A model generated the notes under the pieces. It was not told where the DNA came from and ran no database searches. It worked only from the letters and a program-made list of their open reading frames with translations. Source: an uncultured Desulfobacterales bacterium (GTDB lineage: Bacteria; Desulfobacterota; Desulfobacteria; Desulfobacterales; SpSt-501). From it: DNA of 64,000 bases. This document shows positions 56,223-64,000 of the stretch, in pieces. Where the stretch lies: the NCBI GenBank assembly GCA_938048455.1, contig CALIUY010000002.1, positions 1 to 64,000 on the forward strand, read 5' to 3'. The position numbers were made by a program, and so were the translations under genes. Every line of letters starts with the position of its first letter. Within the stretch, counting starts at the first letter, position 1.

Positions 56223-57287
56223 ATGAAAGAACGCATTCTCCACGGCTCCGGAGGCTCCTGCCGCCTCGTGATCGGAGGGCGGCTCGAGGATCTGGCCGGC
56301 CTCACGCCGGGAGCACACCGGGTGGCCTTTGCCGACGAAAGGGTTCTTCGCCTTTACGGGGAGCGCCTCCCGCCGGATCCGCTCGTCGTGGTGGGCGCGG
56401 GGGAAGAGGCCAAATCGCTTGCCAACGTGGCCCGCCTCTACGAGGAGCTTCTTCGGCTGGAGGCCGACCGCGATACCTTTCTGGTGGGAATCGGCGGCGG
56501 GGTCGTCTGCGACGTGACCGGCTTCGTCGCCGCGACCTACCTGAGGGGGCTTCGCGTGGGGTTGGTGCCGACGACGCTTCTCGCCCAGGTGGATGCCGCG
56601 CTCGGCGGCAAAAACGGCGTCAACCTGCACGGCTACAAAAATCTCGTCGGCACCATCCGTCAGCCGGACTTCGTTCTTTGCGATCTCGGCTTGCTCGGAA
56701 CTCTTCCCCCGGTCGAGAGAAAAAACGGCTTGGCCGAAGTGGTGAAACACGCCCTCATCGCCGACGACGGGCTGTTCGCCTACCTCGAGGAGAACGCCTC
56801 GGCGGCGGCCGCTCTCGACCCCCGGGTGATCTCACGGCTGGTCGAGGACTCGATCGCCGTCAAGGCGGCGATCGTCGCGAGGGACGAGTTCGAGACCGGA
56901 GAACGGCGGCTGCTCAACTTCGGGCACACCTTCGGCCACGCCCTCGAGAAGGCGACCGGTGCGCCTCACGGCGAGGCGGTGAGCGTCGGCATGGCGGTCG
57001 CCACCGGCCTCTCGGTCGCCGGCGGCATGCTCGCCCCGCAAGAGGCCGAACGGGTTCTCCGGCTGCTCGACGCTTTGGGGCTTCCCCGAAGCACGAAGGC
57101 CGACCCCGCCGGCGTCTTCGAGGGGCTGCGCCGGGACAAGAAGCGGGCGGCGGACCGCATCCGCTTCGTTTTTCTCGAGCGCATCGGGAAGGCGGCCGCC
57201 GTCGAAACGGGGCTGGAGGAGCTGCGGGAGCTTTTCCTTTCCTGGCGAAGCTCGCCGGAGGGGCAGGAGGTATGGCCAAAACGGTGA
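56223..57287 (+). CDS. aroB: 3-dehydroquinate synthase
   Basis: Second enzyme of the shikimate pathway, turning DAHP into 3-dehydroquinate with NAD+ and zinc. The 354-residue protein shows 'DTFLVGIGGGVVCDVTGFVA' (NAD-binding Gly loop, near residue 85), 'VPTTLLAQVDAALGGKNGVN', the zinc ligand region 'NGLAEVVKHALI' (Glu), and 'LNFGHTFGHALEKATG' plus 'PHGEAVSVGMAV' with the two metal histidines. All catalytic motifs are present. It starts 115 bases after the HAD gene with no clear ribosome site (GAGAGCGGACCCG), so expression may depend on the upstream transcript. Its end overlaps the next gene by 16 bases. Confidence 0.95.
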   Translation: MKERILHGSGGSCRLVIGGRLEDLAGLTPGAHRVAFADERVLRLYGERLPPDPLVVVGAGEEAKSLANVARLYEELLRLEADRDTFLVGIGGGVVCDVTGFVAATYLRGLRVGLVPTTLLAQVDAALGGKNGVNLHGYKNLVGTIRQPDFVLCDLGLLGTLPPVERKNGLAEVVKHALIADDGLFAYLEENASAAAALDPRVISRLVEDSIAVKAAIVARDEFETGERRLLNFGHTFGHALEKATGAPHGEAVSVGMAVATGLSVAGGMLAPQEAERVLRLLDALGLPRSTKADPAGVFEGLRRDKKRAADRIRFVFLERIGKAAAVETGLEELRELFLSWRSSPEGQEVWPKR

Positions 57288-58429
57288 AGGAGAAGGAAAC
57301 GCCCGCGGATCCGGCGGCGGAGCGCGCAGACGAAGAAAAGCGTCTGGCCGAACTCCGCCGGGTCATCGACCGGCTGGACGCCGAGATCCTGCGGCTGTTC
57401 AACGAGCGCCTGGAGGCGGCACGCGCCGTGGGGGAGGTGAAACGGCGACTCGGGCTTCCGGTGCGCGACACCCGCCGCGAAGCGGAGATCTTCCGGCGGC
57501 TCGCGGGCTTGAACCGCGGCAGCCTGCTCGCCGATCGGTACCTCGTGCAGGTCTTCGCCGCCCTGATGGCCGCGGCGCGCGAGGTCCAGTCCGGCAGCCC
57601 CCACGCGGCCGACGGTTTCGGCACGCCTTCTCTCTTCGCCGTGTTCGGAAACCCCGTGGTGCACAGCTTAAGCCCGGTCATGCACAACGCGGCCTTCGCG
57701 GCGACGGGCTTTCCCGGCATCTACGCCGCGATCCGGGCGGCGGACATCCGGCCGACCATGGCCGGAGTCCGGGCGCTCGGCTTCCGGGGGGCGAGCATTA
57801 CGATCCCGCACAAGGAGGCCGTCCTTTCCTGCTTGGATTACATCGATCCCCAAGCCCGGCGCATCGGCGCCGTGAACACCGTCCTCAACGAGGCCGGGGT
57901 TCTCAAGGGCTACAACACCGACGGGGAGGGAATCGTGCGGGCCCTCGGGGAACGGGTGGAAATCGCCGGCAAACGGGTCGCCGTGCTCGGAGCGGGCGGG
58001 GCGGCGCGTGCGGCCGCATTCGGCACCCGGCGCGAAGGCGCCGCGGTCACCGTCTACAACCGCACGCGGCCGAAGGCGGAAGCCCTGGCCGCGGCGCTGG
58101 AAGTCTCTTTCCGGCCGATCGAAGAATTCGACCCTTCCGACGCCGACATCCTCATCCACGCCACCCCCGTCGGCATGAGTCCGAACGCAGGAGAAACCCC
58201 GCTCTGCCGGGACCGGCTGCGGCCGGGGCTTGTCGTCATGGACATCGTCTACACCCCGCTGCGCACGAGACTGCTCGCCGAAGCCGAGGCCGCCGGCTGC
58301 GTGACCGTGGACGGGCTTTCGATGTTCGTCTACCAGGGAGCGCGGCAGTTCGAACTCTGGACCGGGATCGAAGCCCCCCTGGACATCATGCGCCTGGCCG
58401 TCGAAACCGAGCTTGCCGCACGCGGCTGA
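57272..58429 (+). CDS. aroE: chorismate mutase-shikimate dehydrogenase fusion
   Basis: A 385-residue two-domain protein beginning at the ATG at 57272 (GGCAGGAGGT just ahead). Residues about 20-110 are an AroQ-type helical chorismate mutase ('LRRVIDRLDAEILRLFNERL', then 'EVKRRLGLPVRDTRREAEIF'). Residues about 115-385 are shikimate dehydrogenase: 'VFGNPVVHSLSPVMHNAAF' (shikimate-binding Ser-x-Ser), the catalytic Lys in 'SITIPHKEAVL', 'GAVNTVLNEAGVLKGYNTDG', and NADP-binding 'VLGAGGAARAAAF'. The protein thus joins a middle and a post-chorismate step of aromatic synthesis. It overlaps aroB by 16 bases and precedes aroA. AroQ could feed prephenate into phenylalanine or tyrosine synthesis. Confidence 0.92.
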   Translation: MAKTVKEKETPADPAAERADEEKRLAELRRVIDRLDAEILRLFNERLEAARAVGEVKRRLGLPVRDTRREAEIFRRLAGLNRGSLLADRYLVQVFAALMAAAREVQSGSPHAADGFGTPSLFAVFGNPVVHSLSPVMHNAAFAATGFPGIYAAIRAADIRPTMAGVRALGFRGASITIPHKEAVLSCLDYIDPQARRIGAVNTVLNEAGVLKGYNTDGEGIVRALGERVEIAGKRVAVLGAGGAARAAAFGTRREGAAVTVYNRTRPKAEALAAALEVSFRPIEEFDPSDADILIHATPVGMSPNAGETPLCRDRLRPGLVVMDIVYTPLRTRLLAEAEAAGCVTVDGLSMFVYQGARQFELWTGIEAPLDIMRLAVETELAARG

Positions 58430-58449: not shown

Positions 58450-59709
58450 ATGCGCGAGATCCGGCCGCTTGCTCCCCGGGAAACCATGGTGCGCGTCCCG
58501 GGATCCAAAAGCTACACCCACCGCGCTTTCATCGCGGCGGCCCTGGCCGCGGGCACCTCACGGATCGAGGGAGCCCTCGCCAGCCAGGACACCGATCTCA
58601 CCCGTGAAGCGCTCCGCAACTGGGGCGCGGGGTTTGCCGAGGAGAGCGGCTTGTGGACCGTCCAGGGCACCGCCGGTCGCCTGGTCCCGTCGGCCGCTCC
58701 GATCGATCTCGGAAACTCCGGCACCTCCATGCGGCTTCTTTCCGCCGTGGCCGCTCTCGTCCCCGGTGCAAGCCTGCTCGGCGGCAGACCGCGGCTTGAA
58801 GCGCGGCCCGTCGGCGCTCTCGTCTCCGCGCTCGGCGCCCTCGGGGTCCAAGCCGAGTGCGTGCGCGGAAACGGCTGTCCGCCGGTCCGCGTGATCGGCG
58901 GCCGTCTTCGCGGGGGGCGCCTGCCGCTCGATTGCTCGCGGAGCAGCCAGTTTCTCTCCGCCCTGCTTCTCGTCTCGCCTTACAGCGAGGAAGGCGTCGA
59001 GATCGAGGTCGTCGGCGGGCCGGTTTCGCGGCCCTACATCGACATCACCGTTGAAGTGATGGGACGCTTCGGCGTCCGGGTCGAGCGCGAGGGCTACGCC
59101 CGCTTCCGGGTCGCCGGGGGGACCGGCTTCCGGGCATGCCGTTTTGAGGTCGAGGCCGACTGCTCGCAGGCGGGGTATTTCTGGGCGGCGGCGGCGATCA
59201 CCGGTTCGGCCGTGACCGTGCGCGGCATCCGCCGGCGCTCGCTGCAGGGGGACGTGCGGTTGCTCGAGGTGCTCGAGGCCATGGGCTGCCGGGTCGAGGA
59301 AAACGATGCCGGGATCCGCGTCACCGGAGGGGAGCTTCGCGCCGTGGAGGCGGATCTCGGCGATCTGCCCGATGCCGTGCCGACGCTCGCCGTCCTCGCC
59401 GCTCACGCGCGGGGGGAGAGCCGGATCCGCAACGTGGGTCACCTGCGGGAGAAGGAGAGCGATCGGCTGGCCGCGGTTGGCGAAGGGCTTTCGCGCATGG
59501 GGATCGCCGCGCGCGTGGAAGGCGCCGATCTCTGCATCGTCGGCGGGCGGACGCACGGAGCCGCGATCGACTGCCACGACGACCATCGCATCGCCATGAG
59601 CTTCGCCGTCGCCGGGTTGAAGACCCCGGGGGTGCGCATCCTGGACGAGGCGTGTGTCGCCAAGTCTTTTCCCGGCTTCTGGGAGGTTTTCGAAGAACTC
59701 TACAAGTGA
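58450..59709 (+). CDS. aroA: 3-phosphoshikimate 1-carboxyvinyltransferase
   Basis: EPSP synthase, adding phosphoenolpyruvate to shikimate-3-phosphate. The 419-residue protein shows 'RVPGSKSYTHRAFIAAALAA' at the N-terminus (Lys of PEP binding), 'LGNSGTSMRLLSAVAAL' near residue 90, 'CSRSSQFLSALLL', 'VPTLAVLAAHARGES' and 'LREKESDRLAAVGEGL', then 'CHDDHRIAMSFAVAGL', all diagnostic. The N-terminal segment reads 'SKSYTHR' and the PEP-loop region 'LGNSGTSMR'. The latter lacks the 'GNAGTAMRP' form of the common enzyme and resembles class II types; I cannot judge inhibitor sensitivity. Final gene of the shikimate operon. Confidence 0.95.
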   Translation: MREIRPLAPRETMVRVPGSKSYTHRAFIAAALAAGTSRIEGALASQDTDLTREALRNWGAGFAEESGLWTVQGTAGRLVPSAAPIDLGNSGTSMRLLSAVAALVPGASLLGGRPRLEARPVGALVSALGALGVQAECVRGNGCPPVRVIGGRLRGGRLPLDCSRSSQFLSALLLVSPYSEEGVEIEVVGGPVSRPYIDITVEVMGRFGVRVEREGYARFRVAGGTGFRACRFEVEADCSQAGYFWAAAAITGSAVTVRGIRRRSLQGDVRLLEVLEAMGCRVEENDAGIRVTGGELRAVEADLGDLPDAVPTLAVLAAHARGESRIRNVGHLREKESDRLAAVGEGLSRMGIAARVEGADLCIVGGRTHGAAIDCHDDHRIAMSFAVAGLKTPGVRILDEACVAKSFPGFWEVFEELYK

Positions 59710-59782: not shown

Positions 59783-60367
59783 TCAGGGGCGTCGCCGGCG
59801 AACCAGATCGGCGAAAAAGGCGTGAAAACGCAGATCGGGGGTCAGCTCCGGATGGAACGCCGTGGTTAGAAGCCGCCCCTGACGCGCCGCGACCGGCGTT
59901 CCGTCCGCGAGCCGGGCGAGGATGTGGACGCCTTCGCCGACGGCGGTGATCCGCGGGGCGCGGATGAAAACCCCGGGAAAAGGGGCCTCCAGGCCGTCTT
60001 CGATCTCCGCGACGGAAAGCGGCTCCTCGAAGCTTTCGATCTGGCGGCCGAAGGCGTTTCTCTCGACGGCGATGTCCAGGAGCGCAAGCAATGGCCGGCC
60101 GCCCGAGACCTCGCGCGCCATGAGGATCATGCCGGCGCAGGTCCCCCAGACGGCATGATCCCGCGCGAAGGCACGAAGCGGCTCGACCCAATCCCCCGCC
60201 GTGAGCAGGCGGCCGATCGCCGTGCTCTCGCCGCCCGGGACGATGAGCCCCTGAAGACCTTCGAGCTCCGAAACGGTGCGCACCTCGCGGGCGTCGATGG
60301 CCAGGCGCCGCAGGTGCGCAAGATGCTCCCGCACCCCGCCCTGAAGGGCCAGCACCCCGATCCGCAT
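59783..60367 (-). CDS. pdxT: pyridoxal 5'-phosphate synthase glutaminase subunit
   Basis: Class I glutamine amidotransferase subunit that supplies ammonia to PdxS for PLP synthesis. The 194-residue protein shows 'GVLALQGGVREHLAHLRRL' at the N-terminus, 'LIVPGGESTAIGRLL' (oxyanion strand), the catalytic Cys in 'WGTCAGMILMA' and the His/Glu pair in 'LTTAFHPELTPDLRFH'. Length is typical. It begins 12 bases after the pdxS stop and is surely co-transcribed with it; expression is probably under the divergent PdxR-type regulator. The DXP-independent PLP route is thus present. Confidence 0.95.
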   Translation of the reverse strand: MRIGVLALQGGVREHLAHLRRLAIDAREVRTVSELEGLQGLIVPGGESTAIGRLLTAGDWVEPLRAFARDHAVWGTCAGMILMAREVSGGRPLLALLDIAVERNAFGRQIESFEEPLSVAEIEDGLEAPFPGVFIRAPRITAVGEGVHILARLADGTPVAARQGRLLTTAFHPELTPDLRFHAFFADLVRRRRP

Positions 60368-60379
60368 GGCTTTCCCCCG

Positions 60380-61288
60380 TCAGCGGCCGCGCGCGGCCAG
60401 GCGCTCCGCCGGGCCGAGCGAGCCGGCGCTGACCCCGCTCATCGCCTCCCCCAGCCCCGTGCTCACCTCGGCCAGACGCCGCGGGTCGTTGAAGTGGGCG
60501 ACGGCCAGCACGATCGCTTGGGCGCGGCGGGCGGGGTCGGCGCTCTTGAAGATGCCCGAGCCCACGAAAACGCCGTCCAGCCCGAGCTGCATCATCAGCG
60601 CCGCGTCCGCCGGGGTGGCGATGCCGCCGGCGGCGAAGTTGACCACCGGCAGGCGCCCCAGCTCGCGGGTTTGCCGCACGAGTTCCGGCGGGACGCGCAT
60701 TTGGGCCGCGGTGGCTTCCAGCTCGGCCTCGGAGAGCGCCTCGAGCGCCCGGATCTCTTCGATCACGGTCCGCGCGTGGCGCACGGCTTCCACGATATCG
60801 CCGGTCCCGGCTTCGCCCTTCGTCCGGATCATCGCCGCTCCCTCGGCGATGCGGCGCAGGGCTTCGCCCAAATCGCGGCAGCCGCAGACGAAGGGCACGC
60901 CGAAGGCATGCTTGTCGACATGGCGGGATTCGTCGGCGGGGGTGAGCACTTCGCTTTCATCCACGTAGTCCACGCCGATCGCTTCGAGAATCTGCGCCTC
61001 CGCGAAGTGCCCGATGCGGCACTTGGCCATCACCGGGATGCTGACCGCCTCCATGATCTCCCGGATCCGCCGCGGGTCGGCCATCCGGGCGACTCCTCCC
61101 TGGGCGCGGATGTCGGCCGGGACCCGCTCGAGAGCCATCACGGCCACGGCCCCGGCCTCCTCGGCGATCCGCGCCTGCTCGGTGGAAACGACATCCAGGA
61201 TCACCCCGCCCTGGAGCATGCGGGCGAGGCCGGCCTTGACGGTGAAACTCCCCGATCGTTTCGGGGTTCTGACGGGTCGGGTTTCCAC
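60380..61288 (-). CDS. pdxS: pyridoxal 5'-phosphate synthase lyase subunit
   Basis: Forms PLP from ribose 5-phosphate, glyceraldehyde 3-phosphate and ammonia, as a large ring with PdxT. The 302-residue TIM barrel has '[20 protein letters not shown]' at the N-terminus, the lysine of the first covalent adduct in '[15 protein letters not shown]', '[17 protein letters not shown]' and '[20 protein letters not shown]', as well as '[20 protein letters not shown]'. The two catalytic lysines are placed as usual (near residues 89 and 157). AAGGAGGG lies 6 bases ahead of the start, which by position is a GTG. The divergent gap with pdxR carries the probable operator. Confidence 0.95.
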
Positions 61289-61358
61289 GGGAGCCCTCCT
61301 TGGGATCGGCAGTCGAATCCTCGAAGCTCCCCGGTTGCATAGCAGGCTGGTTTGGTGA

Positions 61359-61398
61359 ATAACAGATACAGATTTTCGCCAAAACGGCCATAACAGAT
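61359..61398. promoter_or_regulatory. candidate PdxR operator: ATAACAGAT direct repeats
   Basis: ATAACAGAT occurs at 61359-61367 and again at 61390-61398, 31 bases apart (about three helical turns), and a third ACAGAT follows the first at 61368-61373. They lie in the 111-base gap between divergent pdxS and the MocR-type regulator, the usual place for PdxR sites, which are often direct repeats. The second copy abuts the regulator's ATG. Confidence 0.6.
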
Positions 61399-61399
61399 C

Positions 61400-62863
61400 A
61401 TGGATCCCTTACCCGCGGAGACTCCTCCGGAGCGACGCTTCCGCTACCGGCGGCTTGCCGCCGATCTCGAGCGGCGCATCCGCGCAGGCGATTTCCGACC
61501 GGGGGACCGGCTGCCCTCGATCCGCCGCCTTCACCGCGCCACGGGCCTGAGCGTCAGCACCGTCTACCGCGCCTTTCTTGAGCTCGAGGAGGCCGGACTC
61601 GTTGAAGCCCATCCGCGCTCCGGCTACCGGGTGCAGCCGGCGCTATGGCCGCCGCCTCCTTCCCTCACGCACCGGCGCGTCAAACCCGCTCCGCAGCCGA
61701 TCCGCCTGGCCGCCGAGCTTTCCTCGGTCATCGCCGCGACGAGCGACCCCGAATTCGTCCCCCTGGGAAACACGGGGATGGACGCCGCCCACGTCCCCGC
61801 AAAGGCTTTCGCGCGGATGGTGCGGGAGATGAACCGCTTCGAGTGGCGCTCGCGGCTCGGCTACAGCCCTCCGGAGGGCTTGCCCGAACTGCGGCGCGAG
61901 ATCGCCCTTCGGGACGTCGGCCTCCCCGGCGGCTTCCGCGCCGAGGAGATCGTCGTGACCAGCGGCTGCACGGAGGCGATCGCGCTCGCGTTGCAGGCCG
62001 TCGCGCGGCCCGGCGATACGATCGCGGTGGAGTCGCCCACCCATTTCGCCGTCCTGCAGCTCTTGAAGGAACAGGGGATGCTTGCGGCCGAGGTGGTTGT
62101 GGATCCACGAGAAGGGATCCTTCTCGCGGACCTCGAGCACTGCCTCGAAAAACATCCGGTGCGCGCCTGTTTTCTCATGCCGCACTTCCAGAACCCGACC
62201 GGCGCGCTCATGCCGGCGCAAAAGAAAAAGCGGCTTCTCGAGATCCTTTCCCGCCGAGGGATCCCGGTCATCGTGGACGACATCAGCGCGCCGCTTCATT
62301 TTACGGGAAACCGCCCGCTTCCGCTGACGGCTTGGGACCGGCAGGGGCTGGTGATCCAGTGCTCTTCCTTTTCCAAGACCCTCGCCCCGGGACTGCGGAT
62401 CGGCTGGGTCGCCGCCCGCGGCGAGCGGCTGGAGAAGATCCGGCGGCTCAAAGCCGCGACCTCCATCTGCACCTCGAGCCTCGACCAGGCGATCGTGGCC
62501 CGGTTTCTCGCCTCCGGAGCCTACGACCGGCACCTTCTGCGGTTGCGCGTCGCCGTCGGCCGGCAGCGGTTGTTGACGGCGGACCTCGTCCGCCGCCACT
62601 TCCCGGAAGGGACCCGTTTCGCCCTGCCGCAGGGCGGAACCCTCCTTTGGATCGAATTGCCGCAAGGGATCGACGGACTCGAGCTCTACCGCCGCGCCTA
62701 TGCGCGGAAGATCGCCATCGTTCCCGGAGCGATCTGCGCGAACTCCCCCCGATTTCGGAATTTCATCCTGCTCAGCTGCGCAGGACCCGTCGATCCCCGC
62801 GTGTCCGCGGCGATCGTGACCCTGGGGGAGATCGCCCGCCGGGTGCAAGACCAAAGGTTTTGA
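61400..62863 (+). CDS. pdxR: MocR-family (GntR-aminotransferase) regulator, probable PdxR
   Basis: A 487-residue transcription factor. The N-terminal GntR winged helix (about 15-80) has '[20 protein letters not shown]' and '[20 protein letters not shown]'. A fold-type I aminotransferase-like domain (about 115-480) follows, with '[20 protein letters not shown]', '[20 protein letters not shown]' and the PLP-binding Lys in '[15 protein letters not shown]' (near residue 322). MocR proteins sense PLP and regulate pdxST, which is divergent here. No ribosome site is seen before the ATG; a -10-like CATAAC is only 6 bases upstream, so the mRNA may be leaderless. The next plausible start would cut the helix-turn-helix. 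Confidence 0.9.
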
Positions 62864-63331
62864 TCAGGTGCGTTTGCGGCCGCGGCGAGGGCTTTTCCGT
62901 GCCGCGGGAGCCGCGGCGATCGCGTAGGTGGCCAGCGCCCGGGCGACGGCCCGGCCGGAGCCGTCGGAGACGGTCGCCTCGCCCACGGCGATTCGGCGTC
63001 CGCAGTGGAGGATCCGGGCGCGGGCGAGGAGATCCTCGCCGTCGACGGGGCGGAGAAAGTTGATCTTGAGCTCGATGGTCGCAATCGGGGCGCGGTTTTC
63101 GATCAGGCCGAGAAGCGCGATCGCGATCGCCGAATCGGCTGCGGCGAAGACGACCCCGCCGTGGACCACACCGTTGGCGTTCAGCAGCCCCGCATCGTAG
63201 GGGACGCGGATGGAGGCTTCGCCGGGGGAGGCTTCCTCGACCCGCATGCCGACGCGCTTCCAGAAGGGGACCTTCAGGCTCCGGTAGCGGGAGAGCCAGG
63301 AGGCGGCGCGACGATCGGCGGGGGCGCTCAT
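62864..63331 (-). CDS. PaaI-type hotdog thioesterase family protein
   Basis: A 155-residue hotdog-fold protein starting at the ATG at 63331. The family signature 'GLLNANGVVHGGVVFAAADS' (residues about 48-67) carries the conserved Asn/His-Gly-Gly and the acidic residue. 'TIELKINFLRPVDGEDLLA' forms the following strand, and 'VATVSD'-like 'GEATVSDGSGRAVARAL' the last. Such enzymes hydrolyse acyl-CoA or aryl-CoA thioesters in the cytoplasm; the substrate is open. The C-terminus is Ala/Arg/Lys-rich. It overlaps the stop of the regulator upstream by 4 bases (ATGA) and abuts the convergent pdxR stop. Confidence 0.88.
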   Translation of the reverse strand: MSAPADRRAASWLSRYRSLKVPFWKRVGMRVEEASPGEASIRVPYDAGLLNANGVVHGGVVFAAADSAIAIALLGLIENRAPIATIELKINFLRPVDGEDLLARARILHCGRRIAVGEATVSDGSGRAVARALATYAIAAAPAARKSPRRGRKRT

Positions 63332-64000
63332 CGGCGGGTTTCCTTCCGGGCGGCGCGGTCCGGTCTTGCGGCCGGACGGGCGCGGAGGCGTGCGAATTCC
63401 TCGCGCACGAGCTTGCGGTAGAGGTGGTAGAAGAAAAGGCTCATGATCTCGACGAACTGCGCGCCTTTCTCCGCGAGGTCGTCCGTGGGAAGCGCGGTGA
63501 GGCGCTTTTCGTAGTAGGCGCGGTGGGAAGTGCGAACGAAGCGCCGCAGGAAGTCGGCCACCCGTTTCAGCTCGCGGGGGTTGTAGCCGTCCTTGGGGCC
63601 GAAGCCGAGGCGGTCCATGTCCACGATCAGCCGCGCGAGGATCACATCGTCGGCGGAATAGGCGGGGCGGCCGCCGCGGGATTCCGCGGCAAGGACCCCC
63701 CAGTCTTCCATCACCTCGAGCCATTTGCGGCCCAAGCCGGTGGCCTCACAAAAGGCCCGGCGGCCGACGACCTCGCGGGAGAGCAGCCGGTCGAGGGGAC
63801 GGAAATAGCGGTTGTGGAATGCCGACACCGCCCGATCGGAGCGGGACTGGCGGCGGTTCTGCCGCAGGATCTTCTTGATCTCGGGAATGGGGAGGAAGAA
63901 CTCCTCGCGGAGCTCACGGATCCAGAGCACGCGCCGCAGGTGCGCCTCGGAGTAATCCGGCAGGCGTCCTTGGGCCCTCCGGGGGCGGGGCAGAAGCCCC
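63328..64000 (-). CDS. MerR-like transcription regulator, N-terminus cut by the window end
   Basis: The frame stays open to the last base, so the ORF-track start (a GTG at 63930) is internal. The visible 223 codons begin 'GLLPRPRRAQGRLPDYSEAH', the wing of a MerR-type winged helix, followed by 'LRELREEFFLPIPEIKKIL'-like helix ('IRELREEFFLPIPEIKKILR'). A second helical segment, 'GLGRKWLEVMEDWGVLAAES' with 'RPAYSADDVILARLIVDMDR', looks like another MerR-type DNA-binding unit. The C-terminal part is helical. The first helices of the regulator lie outside. It is coupled to the thioesterase gene and may control it; its ligand is unknown. Confidence 0.75.
   Translation of the reverse strand, partial: GLLPRPRRAQGRLPDYSEAHLRRVLWIRELREEFFLPIPEIKKILRQNRRQSRSDRAVSAFHNRYFRPLDRLLSREVVGRRAFCEATGLGRKWLEVMEDWGVLAAESRGGRPAYSADDVILARLIVDMDRLGFGPKDGYNPRELKRVADFLRRFVRTSHRAYYEKRLTALPTDDLAEKGAQFVEIMSLFFYHLYRKLVREEFARLRARPAARPDRAARKETRR

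Follow-up and report, generated by a model that had tools for sequence, protein, structure and literature searches.

The gap between the divergent pdxS and pdxR-like genes of the window (the whole 64-kb stretch of DNA that was analyzed) carries repeats that are almost certainly the operator of the neighboring MocR/PdxR-type regulator, and it is likely that this regulator, when free of PLP, would act through the MocR-type operator as an activator of pdxST and a repressor of pdxR, both effects being relieved by PLP. The operator, its spacing and conservation, the divergent arrangement of the genes, the phasing with the -10 element and the family of the regulator are shown by the sequence and its comparison with relatives.

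Table 1. Coordinates of the genes, operator boxes and putative promoter elements of the pdxST-pdxR region, numbered along the window
Feature	Position	Strand	Basis
pdxT, glutaminase subunit of PLP synthase	59783..60367	-	TIGR03800, 199 bits (cut-off 105.6)
pdxS, lyase subunit of PLP synthase	60380..61288	-	TIGR00343, 476 bits, above cut-off
weak putative pdxR -35, TTGCAT	61335..61340	+	sequence only; 17 bp before AATAAC
putative pdxS -10, TATGCA	61336..61341	-	conserved register, -26 from box A
weak putative pdxR -10, AATAAC	61358..61363	+	inference from the sequence only; overlaps box A
operator box A (ATAACAGAT)	61359..61367	+	sequence, shuffles, relatives
operator box B (ACAGAT)	61368..61373	+	[AG]CAG[AT] kept in relatives
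operator box C (ATAACAGAT)	61390..61398	+	sequence, shuffles, relatives
pdxR-like MocR regulator	61400..62863	+	PF00392, PF00155, NCBIfam PLP_TF_PdxR (sub-threshold)

The two genes that share the gap are pdxS, on the minus strand, whose GTG start codon (61288) follows an AGGAGG, and the regulator gene on the plus strand (Table 1). The regulator contains a GntR winged-helix domain (PF00392, at 16-78) and a class-I aminotransferase-like domain (PF00155, at 142-453), both above the respective cut-offs, and the lysine that forms the Schiff base with PLP, K326 in the SSFSKT motif, is invariant among 13 aligned sequences; by this GntR/aminotransferase fusion and the Schiff-base lysine, the protein belongs to the MocR subfamily. 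The best NCBIfam model for the regulator is PLP_TF_PdxR (NF052282), with a score of 260 bits that is under the cut-off of 320. The PdxR name, as applied here, is based on the linkage to pdxST and on this best-scoring, sub-threshold model; with such a score, belonging to the family does not ensure a response to PLP. The wider neighborhood includes a chorismate mutase-shikimate dehydrogenase fusion gene (CM_2 and AroE domains; 57200-58426, plus strand) followed by an aroA-like frame (58450-59709) that is convergent with pdxT. Beyond the regulator gene and convergent with it, there is an open reading frame whose C-terminal end carries a 4HBT thioesterase domain (62864-63724, minus strand), and a similar sequence is also located beyond the regulator gene in the sister genome (L002). 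A further minus-strand frame (63331-63930) reads as a MerR-type regulator-like protein, yet has no Pfam match.

The initial annotation had noticed, between pdxS and pdxR, two copies of ATAACAGAT 31 bases apart and a tandem ACAGAT, and these elements are indeed found where it placed them: ACAGAT recurs at +6 (box B) and +31 (box C) relative to the ACAGAT of box A, the latter distance corresponding to three helical turns. The second copy had been described as touching the ATG of the regulator; it is adjacent to ATG 61400 but not in contact with it, with a single base (C) in between. The two copies are the only ones within 64 kb (0.06 expected), and the composite site (17 fixed bases, at most 3 of them mismatched) has a single match in the 3.38-Mb genome, the reversed control pattern yielding no match in the same search. 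The possibility that the repeats arose by chance or represent a low-complexity AT stretch, rather than a protein site, has next to no likelihood. GC content is lower in the gap (53%) than in the GC-rich window (65%), but two copies of the motif were present in 0 of 100 dinucleotide shuffles, and both sequence and spacing are kept across phyla while the spacer varies, a conservation that already refutes a chance origin.

In the corresponding gaps of Desulfobacterales orthologs, the site mostly has the form AACAGATACAGAT-N17-TAACAGAT in the identical register, and of the 15 other relatives that were compared, most have the three-box site (0/+6/+31). A position-weight model derived from 13 training sites was used to scan the DNA upstream of 79 named MocR loci and of the window regulator. 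At a cut-off of 11 bits (the best of 1,580 shuffles reached 10.7 bits), sites were detected upstream of 53 of the 80 MocR loci, in Desulfobacterota, Gamma- and Betaproteobacteria, Chloroflexi, Cyanobacteria and others. Because some training genomes are represented again in the scanned set of 79 (L002 and L061, for example, are one locus), the scan is an incompletely independent test for Desulfobacterales, whereas it is independent for the more distant phyla. Many of the compared records are MAGs. The spacing between boxes A and C is 31 bp in 48 of the 53 sites and 30 bp in the other 5, a count that is slightly biased by the 3 bits with which the scan favored 31 bp; spacings from 25 to 37 were admitted, and none other than 30 or 31 won. 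At the 31-bp loci, box A always has ACAG and box C always has AG, and the spacer between the boxes is AT-rich and variable among relatives. The search of orthologous gaps that the initial annotation proposed recovered the three-box site, and its reading of the repeats as a regulator site is borne out by this conservation and by the surrounding putative promoter elements (see below). In low-GC relatives, most genome-wide matches with 3 mismatches are background, the controls often giving as many, so that a wider regulon was not inferred.

Some loci depart from the common layout. Two full three-box operators are found in tandem, 39 bp apart, ahead of a single MocR gene (L011:409-490). An inverted-looking TGTAAC is located between the direct boxes in L101, L103, L106, L113, L120, L123 and L124 (TGTTAC in L098); this extra box, which occurs, for example, in loci from Geobacteraceae and Chloroflexi and is absent from most Desulfobacterales sites, including that in the window, suggests the existence of two operator subtypes.

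In a tree of 81 MocR proteins, one clade (SH-aLRT 99) unites the window regulator with six further proteins whose genes are divergent from pdxST, as determined by tblastn, and in every member of this clade, the divergent neighbor is pdxST. These Desulfobacterota-type sequences are nested among MocR proteins with other neighbors. Most of the other operator-bearing MocR proteins have no pdxST within reach, so that their ligands may be amino-acid-derived. The operator-bearing proteins of nearby branches face genes for aminotransferases (L070, L076), an AzlC-like protein (L069) and an EamA-like protein (L096), and further neighbors in these branches are PhzF-like (L085, with a site below the cut-off) and aspartate-racemase-like (L119); these names were read from the sequences and not from profile searches. 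Given that the same operator faces other genes in nearby branches, control of pdxST looks like a single capture by an older operator-regulator pair. More tentatively, and at somewhat less than an even chance, a single operator code (ACAGATACAG with another ACAG at 31 bp) might have been kept by a large, multi-phylum MocR lineage in register with the -10 element of the opposite gene, with different genes coming under its control in turn (aminotransferase, transporter, racemase) and a single capture of pdxST, in Desulfobacterota. MocR sites have been described as highly variable and lacking a common motif (PMC4944035, PMC5320631).

The promoters around the operator were assigned from sequence and comparison throughout. 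In 34 of 48 loci, a TANNNT hexamer oriented toward the divergent gene is located at -26/-25 from box A (the mean is 1.2 per offset), and this conserved element is most simply interpreted as the -10 of the divergent promoter; with a 17-bp spacer, the divergent -35 would fall on box A. The TATGCA of the window retains the TA of this hexamer, but not the final T, and the position of the pdxS -35 is occupied by TGTTAT (minus strand), that is, by box A itself. On the pdxS side, this is the layout of a putative activator that overlaps a weak -35 and has its other half-site another three turns upstream. Across the 48 loci, the operator is in a near-fixed register with the divergent -10 and not with the regulator start codon, the regulator ATG lying anywhere from -2 to +288 nt from box C among relatives; activation of the divergent operon appears to be the main conserved function.

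Upstream of box A, 14 of the 48 loci have TTG at -33/-32 and 17 have TA at -10/-9, both directed toward the regulator, with the clearest regulator promoters in L067 (TTGACA-17-TATAAA) and L073 (TTGACA-17-TATATA). The TTG and TA are candidate elements of the regulator's own promoter just upstream of box A, which would make the operator span the first ~35 transcribed bases, a location that suits autorepression. The hexamers of both promoters are degenerate in the window, where the best pdxR reading, TTGCAT-17-AATAAC, has a -35 register displaced by 6 bp relative to the relatives and predicts a pdxR transcript start near 61370. The register of operator and promoters fits activation of pdxST combined with repression of pdxR at the pdxR promoter.

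The mechanism that we propose takes the sign of the PLP response, by analogy, from characterized PdxR proteins, which bind DNA as apo-proteins and in this form activate pdxST and repress pdxR, PLP being an anti-activator (PMC5320631). A head-to-tail dimer of the regulator would touch two direct half-sites, A/B and C, three helical turns apart; we infer binding as well as both regulatory effects. At low PLP, the regulator bound over the weak leftward -35 would recruit RNA polymerase to pdxST and would also occupy the rightward pdxR promoter at its start region, holding pdxR down. At high PLP, the PLP-bound regulator would release the operator or alter its contacts, such that pdxST goes down and pdxR goes up. 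Published MocR operators consist of direct or mixed repeats with whole-turn spacing (Suvorova and Rodionov, PMC5320631), the direct repeats being two or three turns apart (PMC5320631), and apart from the sub-threshold family score, the window fits the PdxR scheme in the features that a sequence can show. The initial annotation had envisaged PLP-dependent autorepression; because the published PdxR proteins act without PLP, which antagonizes them, this proposal is probably reversed in sign.

The same annotation viewed pdxR as leaderless. Indeed, no Shine-Dalgarno sequence was found before ATG 61400, as it had noted, a feature that is not rare here: of 32 crude gene calls made for the window, 14 likewise had none. 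An in-frame TAA is located inside box C (61391-61393), and no alternative start codon is found in frame from this TAA to the conserved FRYR motif, so that ATG 61400 is the sole credible start. A leaderless pdxR mRNA, with box C overlapping the start and PLP-bound PdxR repressing from box C, would be in line with the missing Shine-Dalgarno sequence, with the position of the ATG 1 nt past box C, and with CATAAC (61389-61394), which could act as a -10 five bases ahead of the ATG. A few distant MocR relatives (L072, L108, L139) are similar in that the nearest in-frame ATG, also lacking a Shine-Dalgarno sequence, overlaps box C or is at most 4 nt away. We nevertheless consider this arrangement very unlikely. 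Box C is conserved equally at loci whose ATG follows 12 to 188 nt downstream, so that its likeness to a -10 follows from the operator, and box C was rejected as a leaderless -10 although the sequence allows it. In five pdxST-linked relatives, box C lies 38, 26, 28, 188 and 87 nt ahead of an ATG with a Shine-Dalgarno sequence; the sister species, whose regulator is 77% identical, combines a strong Shine-Dalgarno sequence with a 38-nt gap, and leaderlessness is thus not conserved among the relatives. The action of known PdxR proteins without PLP (PMC5320631) also argues against this arrangement. With the regulator promoter upstream of box A, as in the relatives, the pdxR mRNA of the window is predicted to have a leader of ~30 nt.

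A different doubt concerns the ligand. The operator would still belong to the regulator, but the regulator, in a GabR-like fashion, would respond not to PLP alone but to an amino acid or amine that forms an aldimine with bound PLP, with pdxST expression following that signal. Such a response would agree with the aminotransferases and the AzlC-, EamA-, PhzF- and racemase-like proteins adjoining the relatives with the same operator, with the distant relationship of the regulator to GabR and with its score below the PdxR cut-off. It is, however, unlikely, considering that pdxST is always the neighbor within the clade of the window and that the characterized pdxST-linked MocR proteins respond to PLP itself (PMC5320631). 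The favored interpretation remains activation of pdxST and repression of pdxR by the PLP-free regulator.

The PdxR-pdxST divergons of Corynebacterium glutamicum, Listeria monocytogenes, Bacillus clausii and streptococci (PMC5320631) similarly combine a MocR gene divergent from pdxST or other B6 genes with an operator in the common gap and, in several cases, direct repeats at a distance of two or three helical turns. Unlike these, the window has a regulator below the NCBIfam PdxR cut-off, an operator of three direct ACAGAT boxes at 0/+6/+31 and a pdxST-linked clade nested among MocR proteins with other neighbors. GabR of Bacillus subtilis (PDB 4N0B, 4MGR) shares the two-domain layout with the window regulator, binds direct repeats, activates its target operon and represses itself (PMC5320631), but is distant in sequence (phmmer, 89 bits over 13-394) and answers GABA plus PLP, in contrast to the PLP response proposed here. 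Compared solely by the rules of box orientation and helical spacing, the window agrees with the MocR motif class with three direct boxes (PMC5320631, Table 2). MpaR of Pseudomonas, considered as a motif match, uses a different motif, and the matches listed in a literature search for the literal motif all dealt with unrelated subjects.

The window system is a well-supported instance of an already known MocR/PdxR operator type, and the mechanism itself is already established in other systems. We know of no study of the layout of vitamin B6 control in these anaerobes, and the present analysis provides a precise operator and promoter layout for such control in a group of them, together with a wide set of natural variants that bears on how MocR proteins read DNA.
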